Positions 32,147 to 50,250 of a stretch of DNA of 62,876 nucleotides are shown piece by piece. The stretch is from assembly GCA_903907925.1 (NCBI GenBank), contig CAIVQB010000074.1:1-62876 (forward strand). The letters run 5' to 3'. Position numbers and translations under genes: made by a program. The stretch is from an uncultured Verrucomicrobiota bacterium (GTDB lineage Bacteria; Verrucomicrobiota; Verrucomicrobiia; Limisphaerales; UBA9464). The notes below the pieces were generated by a model. The model saw only the letters and a list, made by a program, of their open reading frames with translations. It did not search any database and was not told the origin of the DNA. Positions within the stretch are counted from its first letter, which is position 1; every line of letters starts with the position of its first letter.

Positions 32147-32153
32147 TCACGGA

Positions 32154-32225
32154 GTTCAAAGTCCCAAGTTCAAAGTTCAAAGCCGGCGGCTCAATTTTTA
32201 ATTTTGCCTTTTTAATTTTTCCCTT
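32154..32225. repeat. Intergenic phrase repeat between PSD1 and DUF1501 genes
   Basis: Starts with three near-copies of AAGTTCAAAG (32154-32182), followed by a T-rich tract TCAATTTTTAATTTTGCC and TTTTTAATTTTTCCC (32191-32225). On the opposite strand the latter resembles the A-rich tract at 6440-6465. Confidence 0.6.
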
Positions 32226-32230
32226 CCCCC

Positions 32231-33679: not shown

Positions 33680-33697
33680 TTTATCGACGGGCCGGGT

Positions 33698-33870
33698 GGT
33701 GCCACCCTGTGGAGTGCGCCGGCAGAGCGAAGCGTCGACGGCGCTATGGATCCGGACGTGGATGGTAACCGTCGGAACTCTTGGAACAAGGGCTTGGAGT
33801 GGCACCTCAGCTTCGCTTCCAAGTGACGGGTTACAAAGCGGCGTGGCGCTTCGCTTCCCGCCGCAGTCCA
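33698..33870. repeat. Inverted pair of MDCGGKRSATPL-type repeats
   Basis: 33832-33870 on the minus strand reads TGGACTGCGGCGGGAAGCGA and continues AGCGCCACGCCGCTTTGTA; translated it gives MDCGGKRSATPL, a phrase met as a spurious protein start in many PVC genomes. 33710-33750 on the plus strand is a degraded copy (TGGAGTGCGCCGGCAGAGCG and on), so the two are in inverted order around about 80 bp. The layout resembles a non-autonomous mobile element. Confidence 0.7.
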
Positions 33871-33910
33871 TAGGGGGGTGGCGATTGCTTCAGCGGGCGT
33901 TTCCTGCCGC

Positions 33911-35587
33911 CTAATTCCCCCGCAGCAGGTGGTCGGTGTGGCAGGTGGAGCATCCGGCGGGGGCACCGCCGCCGGGGCGATGACAGACCGCGCACGAAAC
34001 CTGGGAAGGGAGATTGATGTCCGCGGAGGTCTGGCTGGCGCGCACGGCATGACAGCTTTCGCAATTCTGCTGGCTGTGCTTGCGGTGATCGAACCGCCCC
34101 TTGAGCAACCAGCGATCGGGGATCACCGGATGAGTGATCGTGGCCAATCGTTCGCGGTCGAGAATCACTTCGTGGCAATAGGCGCAACCGGCGTAGTGCG
34201 CGCGGCGTTCGGCACTGATCCCGGGCTGGCGTTGGCGTGGATCGGCGGTGAACAACACCAGTTTTTCCAGGGATTCACCGCTGCCGAAGGTCTGGCGCAT
34301 CCGGGCCAGATTCTGTTGGGCGAACGTGTCGAGCTCATCCCTCCGTGGCGGACGGCCTGCCGCTGCCAGTTCCGTCGCTCGCAGTTCTGTATAGAGCACC
34401 GGGAGTCCCCGGAGCTTGGCCCGGACGGCGGCGACATCGCCGTGCGGCAGCTTCAACTCGGGATGAACCGGATCGAACTGAAGATCGTGGCAGCGCGCGC
34501 ACTGCTGATTGTATCGAATCCGCGCCATGTAGGCACCGGTGGAGTCGGGGACATGGCAGGCCGCACAGGTCAGTGATTTTCCGTCCAGACGGACCGTGTC
34601 GCCTAGGTGAAGCGCGTGATTGAACCGGAGGGTGTCCGGATCCTTGAGTCCGGGAGTTCGAACGCCGAAATCCGGATGACCCTGCCAGAATCCGGTGAAG
34701 AGATTGGTTCGACCGCCGGGAGGACGCGGCGTGTGGAAGGCGACAAGGCCAGCCGGCAGGGGGGGATCGAACTGTTCCGACGGGATATCGCGGCCCCGTT
34801 TGGAAGAGGCCTTCATCACCGCGGAATCCGCGTGGCACTGCGCGCATTGAAGGTCGGCGGGTGCCGGCATTTTGGAGCCGCGATGTTCGGTGTGACAGAC
34901 CGAGCACGAATGGGCCTGCACCACGTTGGGCTGATGCAGTTCGTGCCGGTCGTGACAGACGGCGCAGGATTCGCTGTCCATGGTGGTCATCGGAATCACG
35001 CCGGCCGCGACCTGCTGGAATTGGTGGGCGCTCAACATTCCCGGGTTGGCATCCAGTGCCGTCTGGGTCCACCCGGAGATGCCGGTGTTGGCGGCTTCAT
35101 GACAGGCACCGCAGTCATTCACGGCGGCGAGACGGTCACGGGCCAGTCGGGCAAAGGCCTCGCCCTGGTGGGGCTGGGAGACCGAGCGTGGAGTGATGAA
35201 CCGCCAGCGCCAGGAACCGCCGATGGCCAGCAGCAGGAAGGCGATTGTCAGGGTGACGACGGCGAGCGTGAAGCGTCCGCGGATGTTGCGCAGGCTGCGC
35301 TGTGGCGCGCAACGGACCACGGGGCATCCGCAGCAGCCATCCGGTGCCGGGCCATCAGGGCAGGGACCGCCGTGCTCCTTGGGACGCGTGCAACGCCAGC
35401 GCCCCTTTTCCTCGCCAGGGCCTTTGTCGAGAATCGGCTGACACTCGGGCGCCGCGCGACAGGCTCCGCCCGGGGTTGGGCCCGCGCGACAAGGTTTTCC
35501 GTCACAGGCCTGGCCGCAGACCCAGGCGTCGTTGGGCCGCTCGTAGCGGGTCCGGTCAAATTCGGGCGATGGCAATGGGGCGGCCAT
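33911..35587 (-). CDS. Membrane-anchored decahaem cytochrome c with cysteine-rich N-terminus
   Basis: 558 residues. An unusual N-terminal region (1-95) has eleven cysteines (WVCGQACDGKPC through GCCGCPVVRC) and no signal peptide, so it should face the cytoplasm. One transmembrane helix follows (about 105-125, FTLAVVTLTIAFLLLAIGG), and then a periplasmic domain with ten CxxCH sites: CGACH, CAVCH, CSVCH, CAQCH, CAACH, CARCH, CAYCH, CESCH, CAVCH, CSTCH. The start codon overlaps the stop of the cytochrome b gene (TGATG). It is the last gene of the four-gene redox operon and the likely periplasmic outlet for electrons from cytochrome b. The cysteine-rich part could bind zinc or Fe-S; not recognised. 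Confidence 0.88.
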   Translation of the reverse strand: MAAPLPSPEFDRTRYERPNDAWVCGQACDGKPCRAGPTPGGACRAAPECQPILDKGPGEEKGRWRCTRPKEHGGPCPDGPAPDGCCGCPVVRCAPQRSLRNIRGRFTLAVVTLTIAFLLLAIGGSWRWRFITPRSVSQPHQGEAFARLARDRLAAVNDCGACHEAANTGISGWTQTALDANPGMLSAHQFQQVAAGVIPMTTMDSESCAVCHDRHELHQPNVVQAHSCSVCHTEHRGSKMPAPADLQCAQCHADSAVMKASSKRGRDIPSEQFDPPLPAGLVAFHTPRPPGGRTNLFTGFWQGHPDFGVRTPGLKDPDTLRFNHALHLGDTVRLDGKSLTCAACHVPDSTGAYMARIRYNQQCARCHDLQFDPVHPELKLPHGDVAAVRAKLRGLPVLYTELRATELAAAGRPPRRDELDTFAQQNLARMRQTFGSGESLEKLVLFTADPRQRQPGISAERRAHYAGCAYCHEVILDRERLATITHPVIPDRWLLKGRFDHRKHSQQNCESCHAVRASQTSADINLPSQVSCAVCHRPGGGAPAGCSTCHTDHLLRGN

Positions 35588-36417
35588 CAGTGGAAGCCGA
35601 CGCCGGCGGAGAATCCGAAGACCAGCACCACGTGGAGCGCGGTGAAGATCAGCAGGCTGTAGGTAAGGGGGATGTGGACGAACAACCAGAGTCGGAGGCT
35701 CAACTGGAGCGCGTGTTGATAGTCGAGGCCGTCTTTTTGGCGGACCAGTTCCGCGATCTGGGCGAGCACCACCCGCTGATCGGGGGTGAGGAAACGGTTG
35801 AGATCGTCCATCCGGTTTTGCAGACGGTCGGTCGGTCGTTCAACATCGATCAGATGCCGCCAGAGATCTCCCGGACCGACAAAAAAGGCTGCCAGATCGT
35901 GGTTGTAGAAATCGGCGATGGCGACGGATTGCGTCGACTCCACCGAATTCAAGGCCAGCGCCTCGGCGCGTTCGGCGAGCTGCCGGCGGACCGTGGGAAT
36001 GCGTTCGTACAGCACTTCGCCGCCCTGCGCGGTGAGACGGCGGGGAACCACCCGCGACCAGAGGAGTCCGAAGACACCGCTGGCGGCGACGGCGAGGTAG
36101 AGCGCGGCCAGAATGCCCTCGAACCAGCCTTCCGGCCATCGCCACCCGGTGTGGGCGAAAAAGAGCGCCACCGAAAGATAGCCGACGTAGGCGTGGATCT
36201 GGAGCCAGGTCCGCGAATTGCCAAGGGGCAGGAACGGAAGTTTCTTCCGCGCGTTGTAAGCGGTCAAAAACAGGCAGACCGCCAGGAGAATCCAGCCCGT
36301 CAGATAGGCGATGTGGCGCATGACGGGCGCGAGGCGCGCGTGTCCCCACGCGACTGCGAGGATCGCCGCGATCAGCAGGAATATTCCGATGACACGGCGC
36401 TGGACGAACGTTTGCAT
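35587..36417 (-). CDS. Cytochrome b-type membrane protein (bis-histidine, four-helix)
   Basis: 276 residues from the ATG at 36417, which overlaps the previous stop in a TGATG junction; an in-frame GTG-like longer start to 36432 is possible. Four main hydrophobic helices are seen (about 8-28, 35-55, 70-98, 110-130) plus one near the C-terminus (about 235-265). Histidine pairs spaced for b-haem binding are visible: H-AYVGYLSVALFFA-H in the third helix and H-IPLTYSLLIFTAL-H in the last. A large loop (about 135-225) lies between them. It resembles cytochrome b561/ferric reductase-like electron carriers. By position it passes electrons from the Fe-S protein to the decahaem cytochrome. Confidence 0.8.
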   Translation of the reverse strand: MQTFVQRRVIGIFLLIAAILAVAWGHARLAPVMRHIAYLTGWILLAVCLFLTAYNARKKLPFLPLGNSRTWLQIHAYVGYLSVALFFAHTGWRWPEGWFEGILAALYLAVAASGVFGLLWSRVVPRRLTAQGGEVLYERIPTVRRQLAERAEALALNSVESTQSVAIADFYNHDLAAFFVGPGDLWRHLIDVERPTDRLQNRMDDLNRFLTPDQRVVLAQIAELVRQKDGLDYQHALQLSLRLWLFVHIPLTYSLLIFTALHVVLVFGFSAGVGFH

Positions 36418-38147
36418 CAGCGGTGCAACCATTCCGCGAGATGATCCAGTCGGGTGAGATTCATCCGCGTCAGGGCGTCGTGCGGACAGGCGCGTTCACA
36501 GGCCGGTCCGCCGTATTGATCCAGACACAGGTCACACTTGGTGGCCTTGAGGATGGGCTTGAGTTCAGCGTCGACCACGAAGGCACCACCGGTGTCACGC
36601 GCCTCGACCATGCGGATTGCCTCGTACGGACAATTGTTGGCGCAACTGGTGCACCCGATGCAGGTCGCCTGGTTGATCACCACACTGCCGCCGGCGGCGT
36701 CGCGGTGAATGGCACCGGTCGGGCAGCCAATCATGCAGACCGGATCGACGCAATGCATGCAGGCCTGGGCGACCTGGATGCCGGCGCTCACCGGACCGTG
36801 GCGCAGGAAACGCGGATTGTTGTCGTGGGTGGAGGCGCAGGCGCGAACGCAGTCGTCACACCGCGTGCAACGTTCCAGGTTGATCACCATGGTGGCCGTG
36901 CCATTGAAGAACCTGCGGCCGGTGAGGAACTCCATCAATTCGGGCCCGATCCGTTCGGCAAATCCACCCTGATCCTTCAACGGATCGACCGCGTCCGAGT
37001 CGTCCACCGGCGCGGTCAGCGGTTCGGGCAACAGATGCTTCGGCGCACCCGGGAGGACGATCTCCTCCATCACCTGGGTGGGGACAAACAGCGTATGGGT
37101 GTAGCCGATGACGCGGAGTGAGAATTGGAACGGGCGCGGATTTTCGGGATTGCGCCAGTTGTGGGCGATTTCCTTGAGACCGAAGGAGCGGCCGGCGCCC
37201 AGGTAGTTCAAAGTGCGCTGACCGCTGGCGAAGCGTTTGGTCAATCGCGCAAATCCGGACCGCACAAAGACGACACCGTCCGGGTAGTCGCCTTCCTGGG
37301 CGATGAGGGTTTCCTTTTCCGGCGAGTTGGTTCCGGACTGCGCCAGTTTCTTGTAGTCGCCCGACCAATCGTAGTCGCCGAAGGTTCCGAACTGGGTTTG
37401 TGCCGCCACCCGGGACAATTGGTCCTCGCTGAGATGCTGGAAGAGTGGAAACGAGCGGAGCGCGTTGGACAGGGTGTTCTTCCGATATAACACGTCGATG
37501 TGAGCCCGCAGCGCAGGATCGAACTTCAGCAAATCGCGAAGCCCCTGCCAGCGGATCTCCAGCAATTCGGTCCCGTCGGTGTCGCAGAAAATCGTGGCGG
37601 TACGGGGCATCCGGCTGAGCGCTGCGATTTCGCCGAAGAATTCGCCGGACCCGATGGTCACCGTCTTGTTTTGATCCAGAAGCCGGGGCACGTCCTGCAG
37701 GAAAACGCGGGCCTCGGTGCCTTCGCCCACCAGGTTGCGGTTTCCCATGCCGAGTTCCTCGGGGGTCCGTACCTCCGGATTTCGATGATTGCCCCACAAC
37801 TGGGCGATGACGCGGAAGATGGACTTCTTAGCCGAGTCACGGCGGCCCAGCACCCGGTCGGGAAGCCCTGGTGGCAGCACTACCCGCACCGTGCCAGACA
37901 CGATCATGAACGCGGACGAACCATAATCGCCGGCGCGGACGATCAATTCGCCGCGCTTGAATCGGCGAATCCGGGAATCGTTTTGCAGGATCGCCCGGAG
38001 CGGCTGCTTGCGTGAGAAGCTCTCCGGGTTCATCTCGCTGAACGGAGCCAATTGCAGCAACCGGTCGAGATCCGCGTCGGAAAACTCCGGGTCGAGCGGG
38101 CTGTCCCACCGGCCCGGCCGTTCCACCTTCAAGATCGTTGCATCCAT
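36417..38147 (-). CDS. Fusion of two cyclic-nucleotide-binding-like domains with a four-cluster 4Fe-4S ferredoxin
   Basis: 576 residues. Two CRP-type cNMP-binding domains: about 30-215 (FKRGELIVRAGDYGSSAFMIVSG then GSGEFFGEIAALSRMPRTAT) and about 220-365 (ETLIAQEGDYPDGVVFVRSG, AGRSFGLKEIA). The first has the FGEIAALSxxPRTAT phosphate-cassette pattern with Arg; the second is degenerate. The C-terminal 170 residues are a DmsB/HybA-type ferredoxin with sixteen cysteines in four sets: CTRCDDCVRAC, CMHCVDPVCMIGC, CIGCTSCANNC, CDLCLDQYGGPACERAC. There is no Tat signal, so it is cytoplasmic, facing the NAD(P)H reductase encoded upstream (19 bp gap). A ligand-gated electron relay is an attractive inference. 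Confidence 0.9.
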   Translation of the reverse strand: MDATILKVERPGRWDSPLDPEFSDADLDRLLQLAPFSEMNPESFSRKQPLRAILQNDSRIRRFKRGELIVRAGDYGSSAFMIVSGTVRVVLPPGLPDRVLGRRDSAKKSIFRVIAQLWGNHRNPEVRTPEELGMGNRNLVGEGTEARVFLQDVPRLLDQNKTVTIGSGEFFGEIAALSRMPRTATIFCDTDGTELLEIRWQGLRDLLKFDPALRAHIDVLYRKNTLSNALRSFPLFQHLSEDQLSRVAAQTQFGTFGDYDWSGDYKKLAQSGTNSPEKETLIAQEGDYPDGVVFVRSGFARLTKRFASGQRTLNYLGAGRSFGLKEIAHNWRNPENPRPFQFSLRVIGYTHTLFVPTQVMEEIVLPGAPKHLLPEPLTAPVDDSDAVDPLKDQGGFAERIGPELMEFLTGRRFFNGTATMVINLERCTRCDDCVRACASTHDNNPRFLRHGPVSAGIQVAQACMHCVDPVCMIGCPTGAIHRDAAGGSVVINQATCIGCTSCANNCPYEAIRMVEARDTGGAFVVDAELKPILKATKCDLCLDQYGGPACERACPHDALTRMNLTRLDHLAEWLHR

Positions 38148-38166
38148 GGGGGCGGTGGGGCGGGGC

Positions 38167-39477
38167 TCAGGCGTCGAGGACGAGATCGGTTTTCGGGCGG
38201 CAAACGCAGGTCAGACAGGAACCTTCCTCACCGGCATCCACCTGGGAGAGGTATTCGACCGCGCCCTGTTTCACGGCCACGGAACAGGAACCACAGCTCC
38301 CGGCCCGGCAGCCGGAATCAATCCGGACATCGTGGGCCTTGGCAAAATCCAGGAGGTTGAGGAGAGCAGGATCCCACGCAACGACCCGGCCAGATTTGCC
38401 GAACGTGATGCTGAACTTCTTGGCGGTTCCGGCACCATCGACCGGGATGGGCGGGGCTGTCTCCGTCGTCTTCTTGATTGTGGCGGGTCCGAAGGCTTCG
38501 TAGTGGATTTTGCCATCCGGCACGCCCCAGTCGGTCAGGCCTTCGTACATGGACTTCATGAACGAGCCGTTGCCGCAGAGGTAGTAGTCGTAGTTGTTCG
38601 AGGGAAGAACGGATTTGAGAACGTCCGGAGTGAGCCGCCCTGCGGTGTGGTAGTCCTTTCCCTGAACATCCTCGGCCGATGGTTTCGAATAGCAGACCAC
38701 CACCCTGATGTTATCGCTGCCGGCGGTGAGGCGTTCGACCTCCGCCTTGAGCATGTGGTCCGCGCGATTGCGGCAGACGAAGAAAAACCAGGTCTCGCGG
38801 CGCGAACCGGTGGCCGCGATGTCCAGGGCCATCGACAGGACGGGTGTGATGCCCACGCCGGCACTGATCAGGACGACCGGCGTCTGTTTTTGGGTCTCGA
38901 GATGGAAATGTCCGGAGGGTGCCTTGACGTTGAGGATGTCGCCCTCCTGGACGGCATCGACGAAGAAACTGGAGCCCACTCCGTGCGGGACCCCGGGTTT
39001 GTCCGGCGGTGCCTTCTCCTTCTTGATGGTCACCCGGTAGGCTGAATTGTCGCTGCCCGCCGAACTGAGTGAGTAGCAGCGAACCACCTGTTTGTCGCGA
39101 CCGGGAATATCGAGGCCAAACGTGAGGTACTGGCCGGGCTTGAAGGCGGGAATGGGTTTTCCGTCGTGGGGCTTGAGAACGAACGAGAAGACATCCTCGC
39201 ACTCGAAGCGCTTCTGGAAGACCTGGAATTTACGCCATCCGTTCCAGGAAGACTTTTCGTGCTCCATCTGCGTCCAGCGGCTTTTGGCCAGGCGGACCTC
39301 GTAGGAAAGCCGTTCCCGCTCCAGATGGAATTGATGGCGTTGCTGCGCCATGCGCCGGACCGAACCGAAGAGCGCGAGGACCGTCTGTACCGTCACCGTC
39401 GCCAACAGAGCGAAGCCGATGACCAGGCCCGGGCTCGTTCGCCATTCGTCCGGGAAGGAAGTGAGAAGGCTTTGCAT
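38167..39477 (-). CDS. Membrane-bound NAD(P)H:FAD oxidoreductase with C-terminal 2Fe-2S ferredoxin domain
   Basis: 436 residues. One N-terminal transmembrane helix (about 15-38, GLVIGFALLATVTVQTVLALFG), a charged coiled segment (45-75), an FAD domain of the ferredoxin reductase family (about 80-190) with RCYSLSSAG, an NAD-binding domain (about 195-330) with LISAGVGITPVLSM and YYLCGNGSFM, and a plant-type 2Fe-2S domain with C-x4-C-x2-C (CRAGSCGSC) and a fourth Cys in CLTCVC. It should take hydride from NAD(P)H and release single electrons. It is the first gene of the redox operon and divergent from the tetrahaem gene. Confidence 0.93.
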   Translation of the reverse strand: MQSLLTSFPDEWRTSPGLVIGFALLATVTVQTVLALFGSVRRMAQQRHQFHLERERLSYEVRLAKSRWTQMEHEKSSWNGWRKFQVFQKRFECEDVFSFVLKPHDGKPIPAFKPGQYLTFGLDIPGRDKQVVRCYSLSSAGSDNSAYRVTIKKEKAPPDKPGVPHGVGSSFFVDAVQEGDILNVKAPSGHFHLETQKQTPVVLISAGVGITPVLSMALDIAATGSRRETWFFFVCRNRADHMLKAEVERLTAGSDNIRVVVCYSKPSAEDVQGKDYHTAGRLTPDVLKSVLPSNNYDYYLCGNGSFMKSMYEGLTDWGVPDGKIHYEAFGPATIKKTTETAPPIPVDGAGTAKKFSITFGKSGRVVAWDPALLNLLDFAKAHDVRIDSGCRAGSCGSCSVAVKQGAVEYLSQVDAGEEGSCLTCVCRPKTDLVLDA

Positions 39478-39507
39478 CGGACCTGATCAGTCATTATCAA
39501 TCGCGGT

Positions 39508-40686
39508 GTGCGAAGTAAACCCCTTTGCTGGGATGTTGAGCGGTTCCCGGTGTGGATTCGCACGGTGATCGTGACCGTCGTCCTGATGGTTCTTCCCGCG
39601 ACCACGCTTTGCGCCGACCCGGCGCTTGCACGTTACCTTGGGGCGCAGTCGTGTTCCGCCTCGTCCTGCCACGGCGGGGCCGGCGAACGGCGGGATCAGT
39701 GGATTCAATGGAATTCCGGGGATGTCCACCGCCGCTCTGCATCGACGCTCACCCTGGCGCGTTCGGTTCAGATCGCCGCCGCGGCGGGGCTGACTGATCC
39801 CGCCACTCATTCCCGCTGCGTCGTTTGTCACGCACCGTTTGCGGCGGTTCCGGTTGCTGAACGTCTTGGGGACCTGGACCGCGGCGAGGGGGTTTCCTGC
39901 GAAAGTTGCCACGCGCCGGCTGAGGGTTGGATCCGTTCGCATACTCGCACCGAACGGGACGGATTCACCTATCGCGACAAAGTGGCCGCCGGACTTCGTG
40001 ATCTGAGGAATCCCTATGTCCGCGCCAACGCCTGCGTGGCGTGTCACGAGAACGTCGATCGCGATCTGCTCCAGGCCGGTCATCCCGAGCTGATCTTTGA
40101 ACTCGATGGCCAGACCCGCGGCGAACCGCGGCATTGGAAGGAACCCGCCGGTTTTTCCGGAGCCCGCGCCTGGTGGGTGGGCCAGGCGGTGGCCTTGCGG
40201 GAGGTGAGTTGGCAATTGACGCGGTCCGGCCAGACCGACGAGCGGTTGAAGGCACGACAGGCCGGGTTGCGATGGATCGTGGAACGGACGGAATCCATCG
40301 TGAATCCGGACGGAACGTCGCTTGGAGGGGTGACCGAATCGGCCCGGATTCAGGCGGCTGCGGACGAACGGGCCCGCGCGGGTGCCGCGACCGATTGGCC
40401 GGCGGCGAAGACTGTCGCCCTGCTCCAACGTCTGGCCGGGACGGCCGCTGAATTTCGGGACGCCGGTGTGGCGAAGGAAATCCAGGCCCGGCGTGGGGAA
40501 CGGCTGGTTCTGGCATTGGATCGTCTGCTGGCGGCCTCCAATCCGGCCTTGGAGAACAAACTGGAACCGGCACTCAAGGAATTGTTCCACCTGGCTCAAT
40601 CATTGCCCAACTTTGATCCCACCCAATTCGCCGCCGCATTGGAGCGTTTCGGCACAGAGTTCCGCGTTCACGCGCTCCGTGAGTAG
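39508..40686 (+). CDS. Exported tetrahaem cytochrome c (c554-like)
   Basis: 392 residues; GTG start at 39508, or possibly the in-frame GTG at 39550, which leaves a compact signal peptide (WIRTVIVTVVLMVLPATTLCA). Four c-haem sites: an unusual CX4CH (CSASSCH), then CVVCH, CESCH and CVACH, all in the first 180 residues. The CX4CH first site and overall look fit the cytochrome c554/c-prime-like family in Planctomycetes. The C-terminal half is helical without haem sites. It lies between the two minus-strand redox operons and likely works as a soluble or membrane-peripheral periplasmic carrier. Its last codons overlap a family-A repeat. Confidence 0.85.
   Translation: MRSKPLCWDVERFPVWIRTVIVTVVLMVLPATTLCADPALARYLGAQSCSASSCHGGAGERRDQWIQWNSGDVHRRSASTLTLARSVQIAAAAGLTDPATHSRCVVCHAPFAAVPVAERLGDLDRGEGVSCESCHAPAEGWIRSHTRTERDGFTYRDKVAAGLRDLRNPYVRANACVACHENVDRDLLQAGHPELIFELDGQTRGEPRHWKEPAGFSGARAWWVGQAVALREVSWQLTRSGQTDERLKARQAGLRWIVERTESIVNPDGTSLGGVTESARIQAAADERARAGAATDWPAAKTVALLQRLAGTAAEFRDAGVAKEIQARRGERLVLALDRLLAASNPALENKLEPALKELFHLAQSLPNFDPTQFAAALERFGTEFRVHALRE
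40657..40674 (+). repeat. Family-A repeat inside the end of a coding region
   Basis: GAGTTCCGCGTTCACGCG, matching 18 bases of copy 2 at 15904-15923. It encodes the residues EFRVHA near the C-terminus of the tetrahaem cytochrome. It is followed by CTCCGTGAGTAG, which supplies the stop. Confidence 0.75.
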
Positions 40687-40716
40687 CGCGCAAGCCGAGG
40701 CCGGGACTCCGGGTCG

Positions 40717-41988
40717 CTACGGAACTCGGTCCACTTGATAAAACCGGGTCGGTTGTGAGGCCGTGTCGCGAACCTCTGTGGTCGTCAAACTCGCGGTGAC
40801 GGGTGCCCCCATCGGAGTCCACGGCGCGGCGAGTGTGTCTCGTTGATAGACCTGATACCGCTGGCCCGGGACGCTTTCCCACTGGATGACCGGCGAATCC
40901 TTCCCGGCCGACCGCACGGAAAGTGCGAACGGAGCGACCACTTCCCGAACGGTTTCGTTGTAGGTGTCGGACAGGATCAGGGAGCCGGATGGGCTTGAGA
41001 CCAGTCCATATGGATTGAAGAATCGGGAGGCGGAATAGGCGCCGTCCATGTTTCCGTCCGCACCGGCCAATCCGGCGATCGTGGAAACCTGACCTGAGGG
41101 AGTGATTTTCCGAAGGGTGTGATAGAACGCGTCGGCCACGAAGAGATTCCCCCGCCGATCCAACGCCAGTTCCGCCGGCGTGCCGAATCGGGCCTCGCCG
41201 CCCGCTCCATCCAGGAACCCGTCTTCACCCAACTTCCCGGCAAAGGTGGTCACTGTTCCGTTCGGCGTGATCCGGCGGATCGCATGGTTGAACGAATCGG
41301 CGACAAAAAGGTTTCCAGCCGGGTCAAAGGCGAGTCCCACCGGTCCATTGAAACGGGCGGTGGATGCATTGCCGTCGGACGAACCCCAGCCTTCGAGATT
41401 TCCGGCAAACGTGGTGACGGTGCCCTTCGAATCGATTCGACGGATGGCATGATTGCCGGAATCCGCCACGAAGAGGGAACCATCGACAGCGATTGCCAAT
41501 CCCAGGGGTGAATTGAAGCGGGCCGTCGTGGCGGTGCCGTCGGTGGCACCGGCGCTTCCTGCACTTCCGGCAAAAGTGGTCACCCGACCGGAGAGATCCA
41601 ACCGGCGGACCGTGTGGTTCCCGGTATCGCTGATGAAGAGAGTTCCATCCGATGCCAGGGCCAGCGATGACGGAGTGTCAAAGCGTGCCGTTGCCGCGGT
41701 GCCGTCGGTTGCGCCGGGATCGCCCGCAATTCCGGCAAAGGTGCTGACGGTTCCGGACGGAGTGAGCATTCGGAGGCAATGATTGCCGGAATCGGCGATG
41801 AGGATGTTGCCTGCCGAATCCATGGCCAATCCGGCTGGATCGGCAAAGCGTGCAATTCCACCGACCCCGTCTTGCTGGCCGGAAATCCCGGGCGCGCCGG
41901 CGAGCGTGCGGACCGGCTCGGCAGCGTGGGCCGCGGTGAGGCCAGTGCTCGCGGTAAAAGCGAACACGAGTTTCGTCACCCACCTCAT
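40717..41988 (-). CDS. Secreted NHL-repeat six-bladed beta-propeller protein
   Basis: 423 residues: signal peptide (about 1-22, LVFAFTASTGLTAAHA), then six NHL repeats (about 25-345) of the form ARFNSPLGLAIAVDGSLFVADSGNHAIRRI with GTVTTFAG linkers, and a C-terminal module ending RFYQVDRVP. Its ATG overlaps the stop of the decahaem gene in an ATGA junction, and AGGAGG lies just upstream, so translation is coupled. It is the last gene of the barrel-decahaem operon. The propeller is likely extracellular or periplasmic; its partner is unknown. Confidence 0.9.
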   Translation of the reverse strand: MRWVTKLVFAFTASTGLTAAHAAEPVRTLAGAPGISGQQDGVGGIARFADPAGLAMDSAGNILIADSGNHCLRMLTPSGTVSTFAGIAGDPGATDGTAATARFDTPSSLALASDGTLFISDTGNHTVRRLDLSGRVTTFAGSAGSAGATDGTATTARFNSPLGLAIAVDGSLFVADSGNHAIRRIDSKGTVTTFAGNLEGWGSSDGNASTARFNGPVGLAFDPAGNLFVADSFNHAIRRITPNGTVTTFAGKLGEDGFLDGAGGEARFGTPAELALDRRGNLFVADAFYHTLRKITPSGQVSTIAGLAGADGNMDGAYSASRFFNPYGLVSSPSGSLILSDTYNETVREVVAPFALSVRSAGKDSPVIQWESVPGQRYQVYQRDTLAAPWTPMGAPVTASLTTTEVRDTASQPTRFYQVDRVP

Positions 41989-44900
41989 CGGCCCCTCCTG
42001 ACCAGCCGTTCCGTGGCGGCAGGCGTCACGGGAATCGTCCCGGATTCCCCTTTGAATTCACGGGTGGGGATGAGCTCGGTGCCGGACCGCGTCCGCGCTG
42101 AGGCTCCCTTGTTGCTGAGATCTTCGACGGTGTAAGTCGCACCGCTATGCTTGCCGCTGGCCGGATCGATGTGCCGCAGCAGGAGGCCGAATTCCTCCTC
42201 GTTGAAGGGACGGCTGCCGCGACGACCGAAGACGACCGTCTGACCGCCGCTCTCGTCCACGACTCGGTCGCGATCGAGCCCGCGGCTGACCGCCACCGCC
42301 GGGGAAGCGGTCGGGAAGGTGGCGATGAGCCGCGGTTCCGGCAGGGGGCTGAAGCCGTAGTGATCGGGTACATTTTCTGGTGAAATCATCTGCAGAATCC
42401 GGAGTCCGTTTCGGCCGTCGGCGACCATGGCGTACATCGATGCCGAGATGCTTCCGATTTGGACCGCACGCGCGTCGTTGAGAACACCGCCGGCGTTGAA
42501 GTGCCGGATCAGCTTCGGTTGCGCGGGGTTCTGGATGTCCACAATCGCGAGGCCTTCGGGACCGTTCGGCACATACAGATAGGTCCGGGCGGCGTAGAGG
42601 CGTCCGGCGTGGGCGAGCGGCAGGGTCGCGACGAGCTTCGGCCGGGTGGGTGTCGAGATGTCGACCACCTTGAGCCCGTCGTCGTCGCTGAGGAACGCGT
42701 AGCGAAACTGAACGGCGATGGCACGGGGATGGTTCAGGTCGGCGGTTAGTTCGCCCACAATCTCGGGTGCGGGTGCGCCGTCCTTGAGGATGCGCACCGT
42801 GAACAACCCGTTTTTTCCAACAACGTAGAGATGCTGCCCGGCCATGTAGCTGTGCATCGCTCCGGTGAGCTTGCCGTCGGGGTTGAAGCGGATCACCGGA
42901 TTCCTTCCATCGAGGAAATTGTTGTCCGGATTGCCGTCGACGAGGGTTCCGACCACCGGCATCACCAAGCCCTCCTCCAGATCGGTCACGTACACGAAGG
43001 CGTAGTTGAGACCGATCTTTTGTTCCTCGTTGCCGGAGTAAATCTCGCCGGCACGCGGATCGGTTTCGGTCCTGGGATAGGGCTGGCGAAGCGGGTCGAC
43101 GCCGAGGGTGGTGGGAAGGGTAACACTGGTGGCGTGCTTTGTTTTGACCCATAGACGCTGTCCCAGCGGGCTGACGGGTGCGCTGCTGATGCGTTCGCTG
43201 AAGCCCTTGTTGTCAACGTTGGCCACGTCGAATACCTGGAAACCGTCGGATCCATTGGCGGTGTAGAGGTATTCGCCGCGCAGGGTCAGATCGAGGATCT
43301 CGTGTCCTTCGTGATGGTGCGCTTCCTGGAGGATACCGTGGTGTTTTTCAACGTGTTCTCGGTGGTTGTCGGGATAGGCGAGGCGCTGCAGATGGCTGCC
43401 ATACGCGGCCTGGGGCTCTTCGCGCTCGGTCCAGACGACAGCGTCAAGGCCACCGCTTCCCGAGCCGACATAGGCGTGGCGGCCGAAGAAATTGACCGTG
43501 CCGGTTCCGAAGCCGAGTAGGGAGGTTATCCAGGCGTTGTTGTCGTTGTCCTGTGAGAGGTGGCATTCGGTGCAGTTCTTGGTCGTGCCAACCGAACTGG
43601 TCGTGTGTGGGAAGTGGGGATTATACGCCTGCCCACTGTAGCCTTCCGCACTCACCGTCTGCTGTTGGGAATAAACCCATTCGCGATTGGAATTCTGAGA
43701 ACCCACAATGACCGCGCTGGACGAGCGCAACACGCCGAGCCGATGGCCCTTGTAGGTGGCGTCGATGCCGAGTTGGAAGACGTCGTCCCGGACAACCTGC
43801 GGATTGTACGTCGTGTAATTCCGGGTCATCACGCCCTCGAACTTGTTGTTGGCGACCCGCTGATTGGCCCGCATCGGCAAATGACAACCAAAGCAGCTCG
43901 TGGCCCACGAGGTGTGGCAGACCTGGCAACTGACGTTGGAATTGTCGTGGGCCAGATCGCGGGCGCACTCGCTCCCGCGATCCTCTTTCAATGGCAGCCG
44001 ATGACTGACATCCAGATCTTTTACCCCGCCCGGCACGTCGCCCCAATCGCGGCCATTGCGCCGAAGCGTCTTCGCATAGGCGCTCTTCGCGTTGTACCGG
44101 GGTGACTTGGGATCGATGGTGTCGACCACCTGCGGCACCTCCCATTCACGGTCGGGGGCGAGCGAGCTGCGCTGGATCAGTTTCTTTCCCTCCCAACGGA
44201 ACCGCGGTCCCCACGCCGTGTTGCTGGTCTTCAACAGGTCGATGCCGTGCTGTTGTTTTGTCGCCGGATCGAAGGTGCCGCCCGATCCACTGGTGATCAG
44301 TGTCGGCCGCGAATTCACCGTGCCGTGGCAATCGACACACTCCACCGAAGTGACCGCCCTGGGTTCACCGTACAACAGGCCATTCCCGTGCATGTCGTGC
44401 AGGAAATGGCAGTCCACGCAGTGCATGCCGCGGGCGAGGTGAACGTCCTTCAGATGGACCGCCTTCTCCCACTTGTGGTCGTCGTCGTGGGGGATGACGG
44501 TGTCTTCGAGATCCAGCAGGCGACCCTGTTTGTCGCGTTTGAAGACGGCGCGGAAAATCCAGCCGTGGCCGTGGTAATCGGCGAATTGCGTGTGTTTCAA
44601 CTGCGGATTCAACTCCGCCACCTTCTCCAGGAAATCCTTGTCGCCCCAGAGTCCACGAACGGCGGCGGCCTCCGGATTCTCAAGATTGCCGGCGGCAATT
44701 TCCGCCTCGGTCGGATTCTTCTGCTCCTTGGGATACATCACCTCGCCGTCGGTTTCCTGATCCCACCACGTGTAGCCGAGGAAGGGATTCACGAAGAGAT
44801 TCCCTTGGTGCATGTGGCAGTTCATGCACTGCGAAGTGGGGATGGCCCGGGTGAAGACGTGTCGGATCGGGTGGCCTTTTTCGTTCTTGGGAATCGTCGG

Positions 44901-45977
44901 ATCGGAACTGAAAGAAAGGCCCTGATGACCGTACTTGGCGTAGTAATCGGAATGGGTTGGAGAACGGTCGTTGGCGTAGACGACGTGGCAGGCGGAACAT
45001 CCGCTGGACCGGTAATCCCCCGGATGATTGTTGCTGCCCATGAAGTCGAGCAGGGGGTCGTGGAGGCGAGTTTTCTGAAGATTAAGGAAGACGGGGTCGG
45101 TGCGGAGTTGGGTGCCGAGTCCGCGTTCGCTCAGGCGTCGGCCGGGTTTCCCGGGAGGTTCTTCAATGTTGGGCAGGCCGAGGGAATTGGGTTTCTCACC
45201 GCCCTTCTCGAAGATGCGGAGGATGTTGCTGGGCTGTCCGACGGTGAACCGGGGCAGGGGATCGAGATAGGGCAGGATGCCGTACAAGCGGGTCATTTCC
45301 GGTTCCACCGGGACCGGGCTTTCCAGGCGCAACGGGACGCCGTCGATGCCGTACGCCTGCCCATAGCGGTAGTTGCGCTGCGAATACGCCCCGTTGTTGT
45401 ACAGCGCCGCACCCCAGAGCATCGCACCATGCCGCATGATGCTGTGACGGACATGGGCGACACTGTCACCGTGACACAGTCCGCAGGCGCGGTCGGCCAC
45501 CCGCAAATCGCCCGGATTCACGAACTGGATGAACTCGGCGGATTCGTGGTTCAGCAACACCGAGGATTCATTGGGATTCGCCGAGGATTCCCAGAAGGTG
45601 GGGTTGCGGGGCTGGACGTGCGCCTTGCGTTGGGTGAGGCCCGGTGCCGGGTTGCCGCCGTGGCAATCCGTGCAGCCCAGAACGACGAACGGTGAGGTAT
45701 GCATCGAATGGGAATCGGTCGTCCGATGACATTCAAGACAGCCCTGCGACTTGGCCAACGCCTCGTCTTTGGATTGGTCGATCCGATTGCGCGCGGGCTT
45801 TGTCGCGGTCGACGGAACATCGGTGGGCACGGAAATCCGCGGTCCGTTGGCCGAGAGATACGCCAGCAGGGGCGAATCCGCACGGACGGCGATCGTCGCC
45901 GTCAGCAGCGCAGGAAGGATCAGGGCGGCGGTCCACCCGCGCCTGATCCACCACCCAATGGAGATTCGGGTTTTCAC
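41985..45977 (-). CDS. Large decahaem cytochrome c fused to an LVIVD-repeat propeller
   Basis: 1330 residues. Signal peptide (about 1-33, WTAALILPALLTATIAVRA) without a lipobox. The N-terminal two thirds hold ten CxxCH sites: CLECH, CTDCH, CGLCH, CSACH, CMNCH, CVDCH, CVDCH, CQVCH, CFGCH, CTECH, with many additional histidines that can act as distal ligands. From about 860 a run of LVIVD-type blades follows (GEYLYTANGSDGFQVFDVAN, FAFLSDDDGLKVVDISTPTRPKLV-like, LYVPNGPEGLAIVDIQNP). It begins 3 bp after the beta-barrel gene and overlaps the NHL gene by 4 bp. Likely located at the outer membrane or cell surface. Confidence 0.92.
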   Translation of the reverse strand: MKTRISIGWWIRRGWTAALILPALLTATIAVRADSPLLAYLSANGPRISVPTDVPSTATKPARNRIDQSKDEALAKSQGCLECHRTTDSHSMHTSPFVVLGCTDCHGGNPAPGLTQRKAHVQPRNPTFWESSANPNESSVLLNHESAEFIQFVNPGDLRVADRACGLCHGDSVAHVRHSIMRHGAMLWGAALYNNGAYSQRNYRYGQAYGIDGVPLRLESPVPVEPEMTRLYGILPYLDPLPRFTVGQPSNILRIFEKGGEKPNSLGLPNIEEPPGKPGRRLSERGLGTQLRTDPVFLNLQKTRLHDPLLDFMGSNNHPGDYRSSGCSACHVVYANDRSPTHSDYYAKYGHQGLSFSSDPTIPKNEKGHPIRHVFTRAIPTSQCMNCHMHQGNLFVNPFLGYTWWDQETDGEVMYPKEQKNPTEAEIAAGNLENPEAAAVRGLWGDKDFLEKVAELNPQLKHTQFADYHGHGWIFRAVFKRDKQGRLLDLEDTVIPHDDDHKWEKAVHLKDVHLARGMHCVDCHFLHDMHGNGLLYGEPRAVTSVECVDCHGTVNSRPTLITSGSGGTFDPATKQQHGIDLLKTSNTAWGPRFRWEGKKLIQRSSLAPDREWEVPQVVDTIDPKSPRYNAKSAYAKTLRRNGRDWGDVPGGVKDLDVSHRLPLKEDRGSECARDLAHDNSNVSCQVCHTSWATSCFGCHLPMRANQRVANNKFEGVMTRNYTTYNPQVVRDDVFQLGIDATYKGHRLGVLRSSSAVIVGSQNSNREWVYSQQQTVSAEGYSGQAYNPHFPHTTSSVGTTKNCTECHLSQDNDNNAWITSLLGFGTGTVNFFGRHAYVGSGSGGLDAVVWTEREEPQAAYGSHLQRLAYPDNHREHVEKHHGILQEAHHHEGHEILDLTLRGEYLYTANGSDGFQVFDVANVDNKGFSERISSAPVSPLGQRLWVKTKHATSVTLPTTLGVDPLRQPYPRTETDPRAGEIYSGNEEQKIGLNYAFVYVTDLEEGLVMPVVGTLVDGNPDNNFLDGRNPVIRFNPDGKLTGAMHSYMAGQHLYVVGKNGLFTVRILKDGAPAPEIVGELTADLNHPRAIAVQFRYAFLSDDDGLKVVDISTPTRPKLVATLPLAHAGRLYAARTYLYVPNGPEGLAIVDIQNPAQPKLIRHFNAGGVLNDARAVQIGSISASMYAMVADGRNGLRILQMISPENVPDHYGFSPLPEPRLIATFPTASPAVAVSRGLDRDRVVDESGGQTVVFGRRGSRPFNEEEFGLLLRHIDPASGKHSGATYTVEDLSNKGASARTRSGTELIPTREFKGESGTIPVTPAATERLVRRGR

Positions 45978-45980
45978 GTT

Positions 45981-48488
45981 TCAGTAGGTGAAGTTGATGG
46001 CGACCACTCCGCTGTAGAGGAAATCGTCCACCTTGCCAATCCGGCTGGGTTGGGAGTCGTCGAATCCGGGCACCGGATCCGTGTTGTGGCGATAGATGTC
46101 CCGATAACCGCTCCCCGGGATCAACACCCCGATGCCGGCGGTGAGGATGATGTTGTCGGTCAGAAACGGCCGGTACTGAAACCCGAGACTGAAATCGAAT
46201 CCCAGTTCGCCGCGGATGTTGTCCTGAAGATCCGCTGTTTGGAGCGAATCGGTTTCCGCGAAGCGCAGGTAGTTGAAATTCAAAAACGTCCTGAGCTTGG
46301 GCGTGGTGTCGATGTCGACGCCGACGCTGTAAATGAAAATGCCAGGATTGACGAAATTGGCCTGTCCCTGGGTTTTACTGGTTCGGAGATTGGGGAACAG
46401 CGAATTGGGCTGTTTGAGGGCGACGCTCGTGCCGCCGAAATTGAGTCCCTGATGAACGTAATAACTGAAGGCGCCTCCGGTGAAGTTGGGATTGTCGAGG
46501 ATTCCGTCGAATCCTCCGCCGGTGTTGTCCGAGGCATTGTGATCGCCGCTCGCGTAGACGAATGACGCCTTGTAGCGCAGCCAGTCGCGGTCGTAGCTGA
46601 CCTCCAGCGCGGCCATCTGGGCGTTGATATCCACCCGGTGACCGGAGATCGGATTCAGATCATCTTTGCCGACCGCCTGGTAGAATTGGTGGCTGACGTT
46701 CCATCGCCCGATGTGTCCGTCGCCGGCCCAACCGAGATAGAAGGCCTGGATCCCGTGCGGTTGGGCGGCTCCGATGGGCGCGGGCCGGACAAGCGATCCG
46801 GTGCGATCGTAATGAACACCGGGTTCATCGAGGTTGGCGGCGAAGGAAAGCTGCGAGGTGTAACCACTCCAGAGAAAATCCTGCCGGTAGACATTGGCGA
46901 AAAACACCTTTTGATTGCGCTGATCGAAGGTGTTCAGCCCGGAGAAGGTGTCTTTTTCGCGGAGGTCAAATCCGGCGAGATTATATTGCCACCGGTTATT
47001 GTCCCAATTGCCGAACAGGCGACCGCCGAGATTGGTGTCATTGAACAAAAACCCGCGGAAATCCTGATTGAAACCCTGATTCCCGGCTTTCACCGCGAAG
47101 AAGTCGTAGTTATCGGACAGATCACCGAGATGGTATTCGGCGAAATATTCCTGGAGGGCGAAAAAGGAACGGGTGCGGTCAGTGTAGTGGGTGCCCGACA
47201 GGGAATCTGGCGGGTGCCCGAGTTGCCCGTTGAGCAGCTTTCCGATGTCGCCTGGATTGGAAACCCAGCCGTTCGGTGGCGGCGGGGTGTTGGGTCCGCC
47301 ATTGATGCCACGCGGATCTGGCGACAGGACGTTGTTCTCCTGAACCAGCACGTAGTTGACGTTGAACACCGGCATGACCTTGAGCGACCAGTGAGCCGGC
47401 TTGAAGGACGTTTCGCCTTCAAACAATTCCACTGCGAAACCGAAGTTTTGCTGCACGCCGATTTGTTCGCTCCGGCCAAAGACATCGGCGGAATCCGGTC
47501 GAGCGGAACTCACGGCCGAGGGCGTTGGAACCCGACGGAACTCCACCGCGGTGTCGCTGGTGGCGGTGAGATTGAGAAAAATGTCCTGACCGAGGACCGG
47601 CAGGTCGCCCTTGAGCTTTGATTGGTAGTACGGATGCCACAACCGGGGCGTGAGGCGGTCGTAGGGTTGTTCGCTCAACCCGCTGGTATAACGCCGCCAC
47701 GGTGTGAATCCAAAGCCGACCTGATACCGGTCTGGAACGGGAACGGTGTTCGGTGGAATCCCTTCGCCGCGTGCCGTCACCGGATACTCGGGTGAACCTT
47801 CCAGTTGGAATTCCCGCTTGTCGTTGGCTCGGACAGCGGCGCGTGGGAGGCGCAGTTCGGATGGCAACGGCTCGGTTCCGTAGCCGGGCTGTCCTGGGAG
47901 CGGTGCCGGTTTGGGTTGCGGGCGCAGTTCCAGCCGATCTTCACGCAACGGGCCACGCGGGACGGTCAATTCACTGGGAACGGGCTGGCCCTCGAACCGT
48001 GGCGGTTCCGCTGGCTCGGCTTGAAAGAACGGTTCCACGGACGTCGGCCTGCCACGGTGAATGCCAGGATCCGGATTGAACTCCGACGCGCTCCGGGGCG
48101 GTGCGTTGGTGTTGACGAACCGGTGACGGTCCCACACCGGTTCCGTCGGGATCGCCCGGCGCGGACGCATCGGGGGCGATCCGGAATCCACGTTGCGATC
48201 CGCCGGCGAAAGCGGTGGTGGCCGGGTGCTGACGGTTTGGTGCGGTCGCGGTGCCTCGGGACTCAGCGGTGCGGTTTCAGCGGGGGTGGTTTCGGATGAC
48301 GGGAGCTGGCGAACGGTCGCGCCGCGATGCCCGTACGGATCCTCGGCCGCCACGCCGGGGCAGTGGCCTAGAATTGCGGCGAGGCCCATCCATCGAACGG
48401 CTGCCGCCGTGGAAAAGCCGCAGGCCGATAAGGGCTCCCCGGAACCCCCGGCCGGCCCTTTTCGATCGTGTCGTTCGGGCGCGGGCAT
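45981..48488 (-). CDS. Large outer-membrane beta-barrel protein (porin-like) with proline-rich N-terminal region
   Basis: 835 residues. The N-terminus has a signal-like segment (VRWMGLAAILGHCPGVAAE, cut near residue 48); then a proline-rich disordered region (about 50-270) and a beta-strand-rich part to the end (FFALQEYFAEYHLGDLSDNYDFFAVKAGNQGFNQDF, LEVSYDRDWLRYKASFVYASGD, DFSLGFQYRPFLTDNIILTAGIGVLIPG), ending YSGVVAINFTY with terminal aromatic residue. Barrel size is comparable with large porin-cytochrome conduit barrels. It heads the operon with the decahaem and NHL genes. No named family is recognised; the conduit role is inferred from context. Confidence 0.75.
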   Translation of the reverse strand: MPAPERHDRKGPAGGSGEPLSACGFSTAAAVRWMGLAAILGHCPGVAAEDPYGHRGATVRQLPSSETTPAETAPLSPEAPRPHQTVSTRPPPLSPADRNVDSGSPPMRPRRAIPTEPVWDRHRFVNTNAPPRSASEFNPDPGIHRGRPTSVEPFFQAEPAEPPRFEGQPVPSELTVPRGPLREDRLELRPQPKPAPLPGQPGYGTEPLPSELRLPRAAVRANDKREFQLEGSPEYPVTARGEGIPPNTVPVPDRYQVGFGFTPWRRYTSGLSEQPYDRLTPRLWHPYYQSKLKGDLPVLGQDIFLNLTATSDTAVEFRRVPTPSAVSSARPDSADVFGRSEQIGVQQNFGFAVELFEGETSFKPAHWSLKVMPVFNVNYVLVQENNVLSPDPRGINGGPNTPPPPNGWVSNPGDIGKLLNGQLGHPPDSLSGTHYTDRTRSFFALQEYFAEYHLGDLSDNYDFFAVKAGNQGFNQDFRGFLFNDTNLGGRLFGNWDNNRWQYNLAGFDLREKDTFSGLNTFDQRNQKVFFANVYRQDFLWSGYTSQLSFAANLDEPGVHYDRTGSLVRPAPIGAAQPHGIQAFYLGWAGDGHIGRWNVSHQFYQAVGKDDLNPISGHRVDINAQMAALEVSYDRDWLRYKASFVYASGDHNASDNTGGGFDGILDNPNFTGGAFSYYVHQGLNFGGTSVALKQPNSLFPNLRTSKTQGQANFVNPGIFIYSVGVDIDTTPKLRTFLNFNYLRFAETDSLQTADLQDNIRGELGFDFSLGFQYRPFLTDNIILTAGIGVLIPGSGYRDIYRHNTDPVPGFDDSQPSRIGKVDDFLYSGVVAINFTY

Positions 48489-48531: not shown

Positions 48532-50250
48532 GTGAAACGAGCAGTAACGGCACTTCTTTTTGCCGTGGCGTGGTCGGAGCTCTGCTCGCGGGTCCATGCC
48601 GAGCGATTGGTTCCCGCCGATATCGAACGAATTCTCGCGCAGGCGGCGAGCAAGACGCTCGAATACCCGTCCAACCCGATCCGAACCAACGCGGTCATCG
48701 CGGTGTCCGACCGCGAGGGTTACATCGTCGGCGTGTGGACCGTGGACCCGAATTACGCCGCCAATCCGAAGTTCCCCGCGTTCCTCCGTAATGCGATGGG
48801 GCGCGCTGGAACGGCGGCGTTTCTCAGCAGCTCCCAGCATGCGTTTTCGTCCCGCACCGCCGGATTCATCGTGCAACAACACTTCCCGCCCGGGATTGAA
48901 AACACCCCGCCCGGTCCGCTGGTCGGCGTGAATTTTTCCAACCTCAGTTTCAGCGATGTCAACCGGTTCAAGAATCCCGCAACCTACAATCCCGCCCTCA
49001 CCAATGGCATCAATGGCGGCGTGCTGCCGGCGTTGGTGACCGGTGGACTGACGGGCGCAGCCGGCGGCGTGCCGTTGTACAAGAACGGCCAGTTGGTCGG
49101 CGGTGTGGGCGTCGCAGGCGATGAAGAATTCGGCGCACCGCTGGGGCAGCAGCAGGTTCAATTCGGTGCGACGCGGACGTCGGTGGCCGGCTTGATCACC
49201 AACTCGTTTTTTTACGAACTCGCCATCTCGTCGGAATTGGTGCGGGCACCCGATGTCGACGAGGAAGTGGCGCTCGCCGGGCAGATCGGTTTTGCGCCCG
49301 ATCCGCGCCTGTGGGGCAGCAAGGTGTTCGTCGCCGGCATTTCCCTGGTCTATATCGCCAACCCACCGGTCGCCGCGCGGGTCGTCCTGCCGCTGGCTGC
49401 CACCGGGGTGCCCGTGGCCGCCTATCCCATCGTGGCGCCGCCGCCGGTGGACTATCCGCCCCTGACGCTCGGCGGCGTGACCGGTGAACTGCGACAACCG
49501 ATCCTCGACGATCCCGCGTTGCACGATGCGTCCACGTCCAATGACACCATCGCCGGACAGGCGCGTCTGACTGCCGCGGAGGTTCGATCCATCCTGGAAC
49601 TCGGTGCCCGACGGGCCCGAACGACGCGCGCCGGAATCCGGCTGCCGCGCGGCAGTCGGATGCAGTGCTTCATCTCGGTGGTTTCGAACCCAAACCGGGA
49701 CGATGCTCCGCCGCCCGTGTTGGGCAGCTTTTGCACCTCACCCGATGCCACGCGGTTTTCTTGGGATGTCTCGGTTCAGAAGGCCCGCACGGCGCTTTTC
49801 TTTTCCGATTCAACCCGTGCCTTCGGTGCGCGGACGGTTGGATTTCTGGCGGAGAAGTTTTATCCGCCGGGTATCCGGGATACCGAGCCCGGGATTTTTG
49901 CCGGTCTTCAGGAGCAGTTCAGCGGTTTCATTTACGATGTTCAGAATCCGTTGAACGATGTCGTGGTGTCGGCACCCGAGGGGCAGCCGGCTTTGTCGCT
50001 CACCGCGATTCCGGTGAACCTGAATCTGCCGAATGGAATCACCATTTTCCCGGGTGGATTCCCACTGTACAGGAACGGAGTTTTGATTGGCGCCGTTGGC
50101 GTGTCCGGCGATGGCATTGATCAGGACGATTTGGTGGCCGCCAGTGCTGCGCGTGATTTTCCGGCACCCCGTGAAATCCGCGCCGATCGCTTGAGCTATC
50201 GGGGAGCACGGCTGCCCTACGCCAAATTCCCTCGGAACCCGGCCTTATAA
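48532..50250 (+). CDS. Exported protein with two GlcG/HbpS-type haem-binding domains
   Basis: 572 residues, GTG start (signal peptide VTALLFAVAWSELCSRVHA, cut near residue 23). Domain 1 (about 26-235) begins RLVPADIERILAQAASK and has VAVSDREGYIVGVW and FSSRTAGFIVQQHFPPG; domain 2 (about 350-560) begins RLTAAEVRSILELGARRA and has FGARTVGFLAEKFYPPG. Both end with GGFPLYRNGVLIGAVGVSGDG-type loops, the GlcG/HbpS (haem-degrading) family signature. Each domain carries an insertion compared with the usual 130-150-residue GlcG. It is divergent, 43 bp from the outer-membrane barrel gene of the redox island, which suggests haem handling for the cytochromes. Confidence 0.85.
   Translation: MKRAVTALLFAVAWSELCSRVHAERLVPADIERILAQAASKTLEYPSNPIRTNAVIAVSDREGYIVGVWTVDPNYAANPKFPAFLRNAMGRAGTAAFLSSSQHAFSSRTAGFIVQQHFPPGIENTPPGPLVGVNFSNLSFSDVNRFKNPATYNPALTNGINGGVLPALVTGGLTGAAGGVPLYKNGQLVGGVGVAGDEEFGAPLGQQQVQFGATRTSVAGLITNSFFYELAISSELVRAPDVDEEVALAGQIGFAPDPRLWGSKVFVAGISLVYIANPPVAARVVLPLAATGVPVAAYPIVAPPPVDYPPLTLGGVTGELRQPILDDPALHDASTSNDTIAGQARLTAAEVRSILELGARRARTTRAGIRLPRGSRMQCFISVVSNPNRDDAPPPVLGSFCTSPDATRFSWDVSVQKARTALFFSDSTRAFGARTVGFLAEKFYPPGIRDTEPGIFAGLQEQFSGFIYDVQNPLNDVVVSAPEGQPALSLTAIPVNLNLPNGITIFPGGFPLYRNGVLIGAVGVSGDGIDQDDLVAASAARDFPAPREIRADRLSYRGARLPYAKFPRNPAL

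Follow-up and report, generated by a model that had tools for sequence, protein, structure and literature searches.

The window analyzed here, 62,876 nucleotides from an uncultured Verrucomicrobiota bacterium that make up one entire contig of a 4.6-Mb genome, carries two redox operons with a tetrahaem cytochrome gene between them. We consider it fairly probable that these genes encode one trans-envelope electron-transfer system, which would lead electrons from NAD(P)H to a decahaem cytochrome (OM10h) and on to an extracellular or surface acceptor, with gating by cyclic nucleotides. The observations are gene content, sequence motifs, conserved ligands, co-occurrence, and correlated divergence; the order of the carriers, the outward direction, the outer-membrane position of OM10h, the gating, and the acceptor are what we infer. 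In the proposed mechanism, NAD(P)H would reduce an FNR-type flavoprotein (FAD, [2Fe-2S]), whose electrons would pass to the [4Fe-4S] clusters of a cNMP-domain ferredoxin (cNMPFd), cross the inner membrane via two b haems of CytB, and continue through the membrane-anchored decahaem IM10h and a periplasmic tetrahaem c554-like protein to OM10h. The latter, accompanied by a porin of its own and by an HbpS-like protein, would sit at the outer membrane and hand electrons to the acceptor, while binding of a cyclic nucleotide would probably gate the cytoplasmic entry.

Gene layout and predicted electron carriers

The inner-membrane operon is encoded on the minus strand in the order FNR (38167-39477), cNMPFd (36417-38147), CytB (35587-36432), and IM10h (33911-35587). 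The outer-membrane operon, on the same strand, consists of the porin (45981-48488), OM10h (41985-45977), and an NHL β-propeller (40717-41988), its third gene, which holds no haem motif and is present in 20 of the order loci fetched. Between both operons lies the plus-strand tetrahaem gene (39508-40686), divergent from the inner-membrane operon and convergent with the outer-membrane one. This gene anatomy agrees with the side-by-side arrangement described in the earlier note, as does its figure of 24 c-type haem sites: IM10h and OM10h have 10 CXXCH motifs each, and the tetrahaem protein has three CXXCH and one CX4CH. The set extends beyond the range of that note, since an HbpS-like gene (48532-50250, plus strand), divergent from the porin gene, is a conserved member. 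Complete homologues within the order keep the motif counts (10 in 28/28 for OM10h, 10 in 24/24 for IM10h, and 3+1 in 18/18 for the tetrahaem protein), which argues that the haem pattern did not arise by chance. A minus-strand open reading frame at 39487-40599 was dropped because the haem motifs sit in the plus-strand frame. To the left of position 33911 lie a PSCyt1/PSCyt2/PSD1 gene and a DUF1501 gene (29015-33679); a minus-strand frame at 32198-33871, which has no Pfam match and overlaps the DUF1501 gene, was likewise rejected.

The flavoprotein, with a hydrophobic segment at its N terminus followed by FAD, NAD(P)-binding, and [2Fe-2S] domains, is probably the electron entry point. In cNMPFd, which combines two cNMP domains with a 4Fe-4S ferredoxin, 16 cysteines are invariant among 13 sequences, fitting four [4Fe-4S] clusters. 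CRP-type cNMP-binding domains have a phosphate-binding motif with a glutamate and an arginine, and the first cNMP domain of cNMPFd (PF00027) features G172, E173, A176, and R182, invariant in 13/13 sequences, as a predicted motif of this kind; no clear phosphate-binding motif was seen in the second domain. CytB has no Pfam family above cutoff. Its residues H80, H94, H253, and H267, found together with hydrophobic segments, are invariant in 18/18 sequences across phyla (H267 is kept in 96% of 26 sequences in a separate alignment), and two conserved histidine pairs in membrane helices are the pattern expected of a cytochrome with two b haems, so that CytB is probably the transmembrane relay. IM10h begins with an N-terminal part in which 8 cysteines are invariant among 23 order sequences, and a single hydrophobic segment (residues 106 to 124) precedes its 10 CXXCH motifs.

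The N terminus of the tetrahaem protein indicates secretion; the gene has a GTG start, and a later start is possible. The protein scores above the Pfam cutoff of the cytochrome c554 family (PF13435) but far below the cutoff of the NCBIfam equivalog. Residues C49, C54, and H55 of the CX4CH motif are invariant among 19 sequences, and more distant relatives at three loci (L154, L157, and L163) have three CXXCH and no CX3-4CH. As for the host, the genome yields two matches to cytochrome c assembly, which favor the proposed system, and three to haem-copper oxidases, and from the latter it can probably respire oxygen.

Co-inheritance of the two operons

Among 146 genomes of the order, an OM10h orthologue was found in 33 and a ferredoxin orthologue in 27, all 27 lying inside the 33 (Fisher p = 6e-24 by genome; 13/13 families, p = 7e-11). 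Both groups were chosen by hand, at more than 60% identity for OM10h and at least 58% for the ferredoxin, leaving out propeller-only rows and ferredoxin rows at 45 to 52%. These figures come from the synteny and co-occurrence check suggested in the earlier note, and they rule against an unlinked occurrence of the two operons. Distances of cNMPFd correlate with those of OM10h (r = 0.91, n = 33), as do those of IM10h (0.85) and CytB (0.895), shared ancestry contributing to these values. The arrangement itself varies. OM10h and the ferredoxin lie on one contig within 16 kb of each other in 7/27 genomes (G000, G016, G017, G037, G050, G112, and G132); the chance probability calculated for this linkage presupposes random placement in 4.5 Mb. 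Genes split across contig ends place both operons together in G081, G088, and G124, and in G003 it is the porin, not OM10h, that adjoins the inner-membrane operon. In the window's own genus (G006, G064, and G137), the two operons are found on different contigs, and in G022, G064, G118, G137, and G143 they are at least 39 kb apart as judged from gene positions and the lengths of the contigs. The "one island" of the earlier note thus holds as a co-inherited set but not as a fixed arrangement.

Exceptions to the pairing fall on both sides. The ferredoxin orthologue is missing in 6/33 OM10h genomes, three of which instead show a diverged version of the set, next to c554 and HbpS; the other three (G009, G062, and G126) are 57%, 66%, and 95% complete. 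Conversely, ferredoxin paralogues (45 to 52%) occur without OM10h in G036, G048, G082, and G111, and a second ferredoxin at 51 to 52% is present in G017, G022, and G143. Diverged inner-membrane modules in G036 (L064:4669-8654) and G048 (L065:3984-10153) include 10-haem proteins and adjoin other multihaem genes, and the module may have other partners there. Of 240 genomes of the phylum searched at 1e-60, 7 gave a match to OM10h and 10 to the ferredoxin. All five ferredoxins of at least 60% identity (window included) share a contig with OM10h, which lies about 5 kb away in the class-sample genomes G190, G230, G285, and G305, while the five at 45 to 50% occur without it (G220, G266, G267, G271, and G300); G158 and G311 have OM10h and no ferredoxin match at this threshold.

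Related sets are also found well outside the order. From the genome scan for OM10h we examined the best 80 of 578 confirmed relatives, which comprise 62 loci at 55 to 86% identity and 18 far loci at 47 to 51% over about 1,200 residues. Among near loci flanked by 9 kb on either side (n = 28), the porin is present in 25, IM10h in 12, and the ferredoxin in 10. The near loci L132, L143, and L147 show OM10h with neither the porin nor any other member nearby. By tblastn, the 18 far loci hold porin (17), HbpS (11), c554 (10), ferredoxin (6), CytB (5), and IM10h (5), with no match to FNR. A further reading frame with at least 8 CXXCH is found in 9 of the 18, many of which are cut by contig ends; L152 has none although its flanks are full. 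The CXXCH count is exactly 10 in both IM10h and OM10h at L153, L154, L156, L157, L161, and L163, and also in Sphingobium (L171). The window and near loci have the FNR type of flavoprotein. In the three far loci scanned for it (L153, L163, and L171), FNR gives way to a nonhomologous Pyr_redox flavoprotein, which in L153 and L171 forms one protein with cNMP and 4Fe-4S domains and in L163 comes with FHA and 2Fe-2S domains. Since unrelated flavoprotein types fill the same place, NAD(P)H is supported as the partner. L163 (18602-23537) and L153 (4019-5875) also show a PP2C phosphatase, a reading frame that is kinase-like by its start, and FHA domains that belong to IM10h or adjoin it; phosphoregulation of these sets is possible.

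Loci labeled Nitrospira, Ignavibacteria, Zixibacteria, and Acidobacteria (labels are record titles, some of them doubtful) and Sphingobium plasmids contain the set in whole or in part. This recurrence in several bacterial groups suggests that the genes form one genuine system and did not come together by chance. Plasmid pMSHV of Sphingobium herbicidovorans carries c554 (4 CXXCH + 1), HbpS, porin, OM10h (10 CXXCH), a metallophosphoesterase, IM10h (10 CXXCH, with a weak FHA-like start below cutoff), CytB, and the Pyr_redox/cNMP/4Fe-4S protein; directly upstream of the Sphingobium set (L171:2458-10611) lie a gene annotated as a ShlB/FhaC/HecB secretion protein and a 2,092-aa gene. OM10h was found on thirteen sphingomonad plasmid records, two of which were examined for their neighborhood (L171 and L172); in L172, an annotated cpdA (cAMP phosphodiesterase) takes the position of the metallophosphoesterase. 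Matches on Gloeothece plasmids were discarded, as they cover 16% of OM10h, in the propeller only. A plasmid search for the ferredoxin at 1e-25 gave no match, a limit too strict that missed the diverged Sphingobium copy, and phages searched for OM10h gave none.

Outer-membrane step and known conduits

The haem motifs of OM10h span residues 80 to 806, and an LVIVD β-propeller forms its C terminus. Of 61 aligned sequences, 56 have 10 CXXCH and five far ones (L155, L160, L162, L164, and L165) have 9. Eleven histidines outside the motifs are invariant in all 61, a number sufficient to ligate all ten haems in the bis-His manner; one haem may nevertheless be catalytic. The structure model is of middling quality (pLDDT 72.5), and the Foldseek and VIA matches listed for it are propellers, which barely probe the haem region. 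By sequence, PDB chains gave weak matches only, the best being eight-haem nitrite reductases (E 0.033, 48 positions). The porin has a Pro-rich N-terminal part before its β-barrel. Its model (596 residues, pLDDT 83.6) contains 18 to 19 strands of at least 7 residues and has AlgE as its best solved match (Z 28.1, rmsd 2.9, 362 aligned), which suggests a fold like that of AlgE and OprD, with about 18 strands. A profile of 59 porins matched no PDB chain at E ≤ 1, and MtrB is absent among the structural matches listed for the model.

Mtr-type conduits consist of a 26-strand barrel sheathing a compact periplasmic decahaem cytochrome. The present set resembles them in its inner-membrane cytochrome, its periplasmic multihaem protein, and the pairing of a decahaem gene with a gene for an outer-membrane barrel. 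It differs in the modeled barrel, which falls short of a 26-strand sheath, in the spread of the OM10h haems over some 730 residues with a propeller at the end, and in its entry through an NAD(P)H flavoprotein and a ferredoxin. Passage of electrons across the outer membrane is the weakest step of the proposed path. The complete route from NAD(P)H to the cell surface envisaged in the earlier note is retained as far as the predicted NAD(P)H input, two probable b haems, and the decahaem, tetrahaem, and decahaem proteins are concerned, but an Mtr-like outer-membrane sheath is not predicted.

Closer in taxonomy are the porin-multihaem clusters of Verrucomicrobia (He et al. 2017, PMC5615132; He et al. 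2019, PCC, PMC6344600), in which, according to the sections of these papers seen, a porin gene also stands beside multihaem genes. Their porin is described there with at least 20 transmembrane motifs, and the adjacent cytochrome of the 2017 cluster with eight conserved haem sites (PMC5615132), whereas OM10h of the window and of all 28 complete order homologues carries 10, which by description sets it apart. Neither an NAD(P)H nor a cNMP operon figures in the descriptions seen in both papers. The 2017 paper names IMCC26134 (PMC5615132), whose genome (L109) carries the present set. We found no description of this gene set in the open-license literature, including the parts seen of PMC5566968, PMC9040806, PMC6920513, PMC11475568, and PMC12977616.

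Alternative readings and implications

Of 20 listed loci with OM10h, IM10h, and the ferredoxin, three duplicate the DNA of others; in each of the remaining 17, OM10h resembles its window counterpart more closely than any other component does. Measured against RpoB (reference of 1,078 residues, 22 genomes), OM10h reaches 66 to 76% in order genomes outside the genus, where RpoB has 83 to 88%, and 67% against 76% in G158; the values are nearly even in the class genomes G190, G285, and G305 (67 to 70% versus 69 to 72%). In the L153 and L163 genomes, OM10h stands at 49 and 48% and RpoB at 61 (partial) and 55%. OM10h thus evolves slowly, though not more slowly than RpoB. Multihaem cytochromes of Geobacter and Shewanella, by comparison, evolve fast according to the portion seen of PMC12977616. 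It is tempting to speculate from this difference that OM10h is a specific reductase rather than a generic wire to minerals, humics, or electrodes, that is, an NAD(P)H-fed enzyme for one substrate at the surface or facing the periplasm, a refinement of the favored reading that we regard as tenable but short of even odds. The invariant histidines would suit it, yet they also suffice for an all-bis-His wiring, and the near-even identities, which the order genomes and G158 do not share, could also stem from horizontal transfer. A broader version, namely an envelope-spanning NAD(P)H oxidoreductase that is gated by cyclic nucleotides, shared across phyla, sometimes carried on plasmids, and present also in aerobes, such as Sphingobium, with OM10h as its one-substrate surface reductase, is a shade more doubtful still.

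Electrons could also run inward, from an outside reductant oxidized at OM10h to NAD(P)+ or ferredoxin. The carriers are reversible, and Nitrospira, the label of one locus with the set, is lithotrophic; however, many carrier lineages are heterotrophic as far as is generally known, and NAD(P)H formation would require a donor of very low potential, which makes this direction improbable. That two independent operons are neighbors by accident is scarcely credible: they are separate in the window's genus, and ferredoxin paralogues do occur without OM10h, but co-occurrence is complete in the 27 genomes and adjacency recurs in far loci.

If the favored reading, a trans-envelope system leading from NAD(P)H to OM10h, is true, these bacteria, from soil and freshwater lineages so far not known for such a trait, would have a defined route for spending NAD(P)H at the cell surface, apparently with no need of quinones. 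Cultured hosts with the set exist in IMCC26134 and Sphingobium herbicidovorans MH. Should OM10h indeed serve one substrate, it would represent a kind of extracellular redox enzyme distinct from the mineral-respiring conduits.
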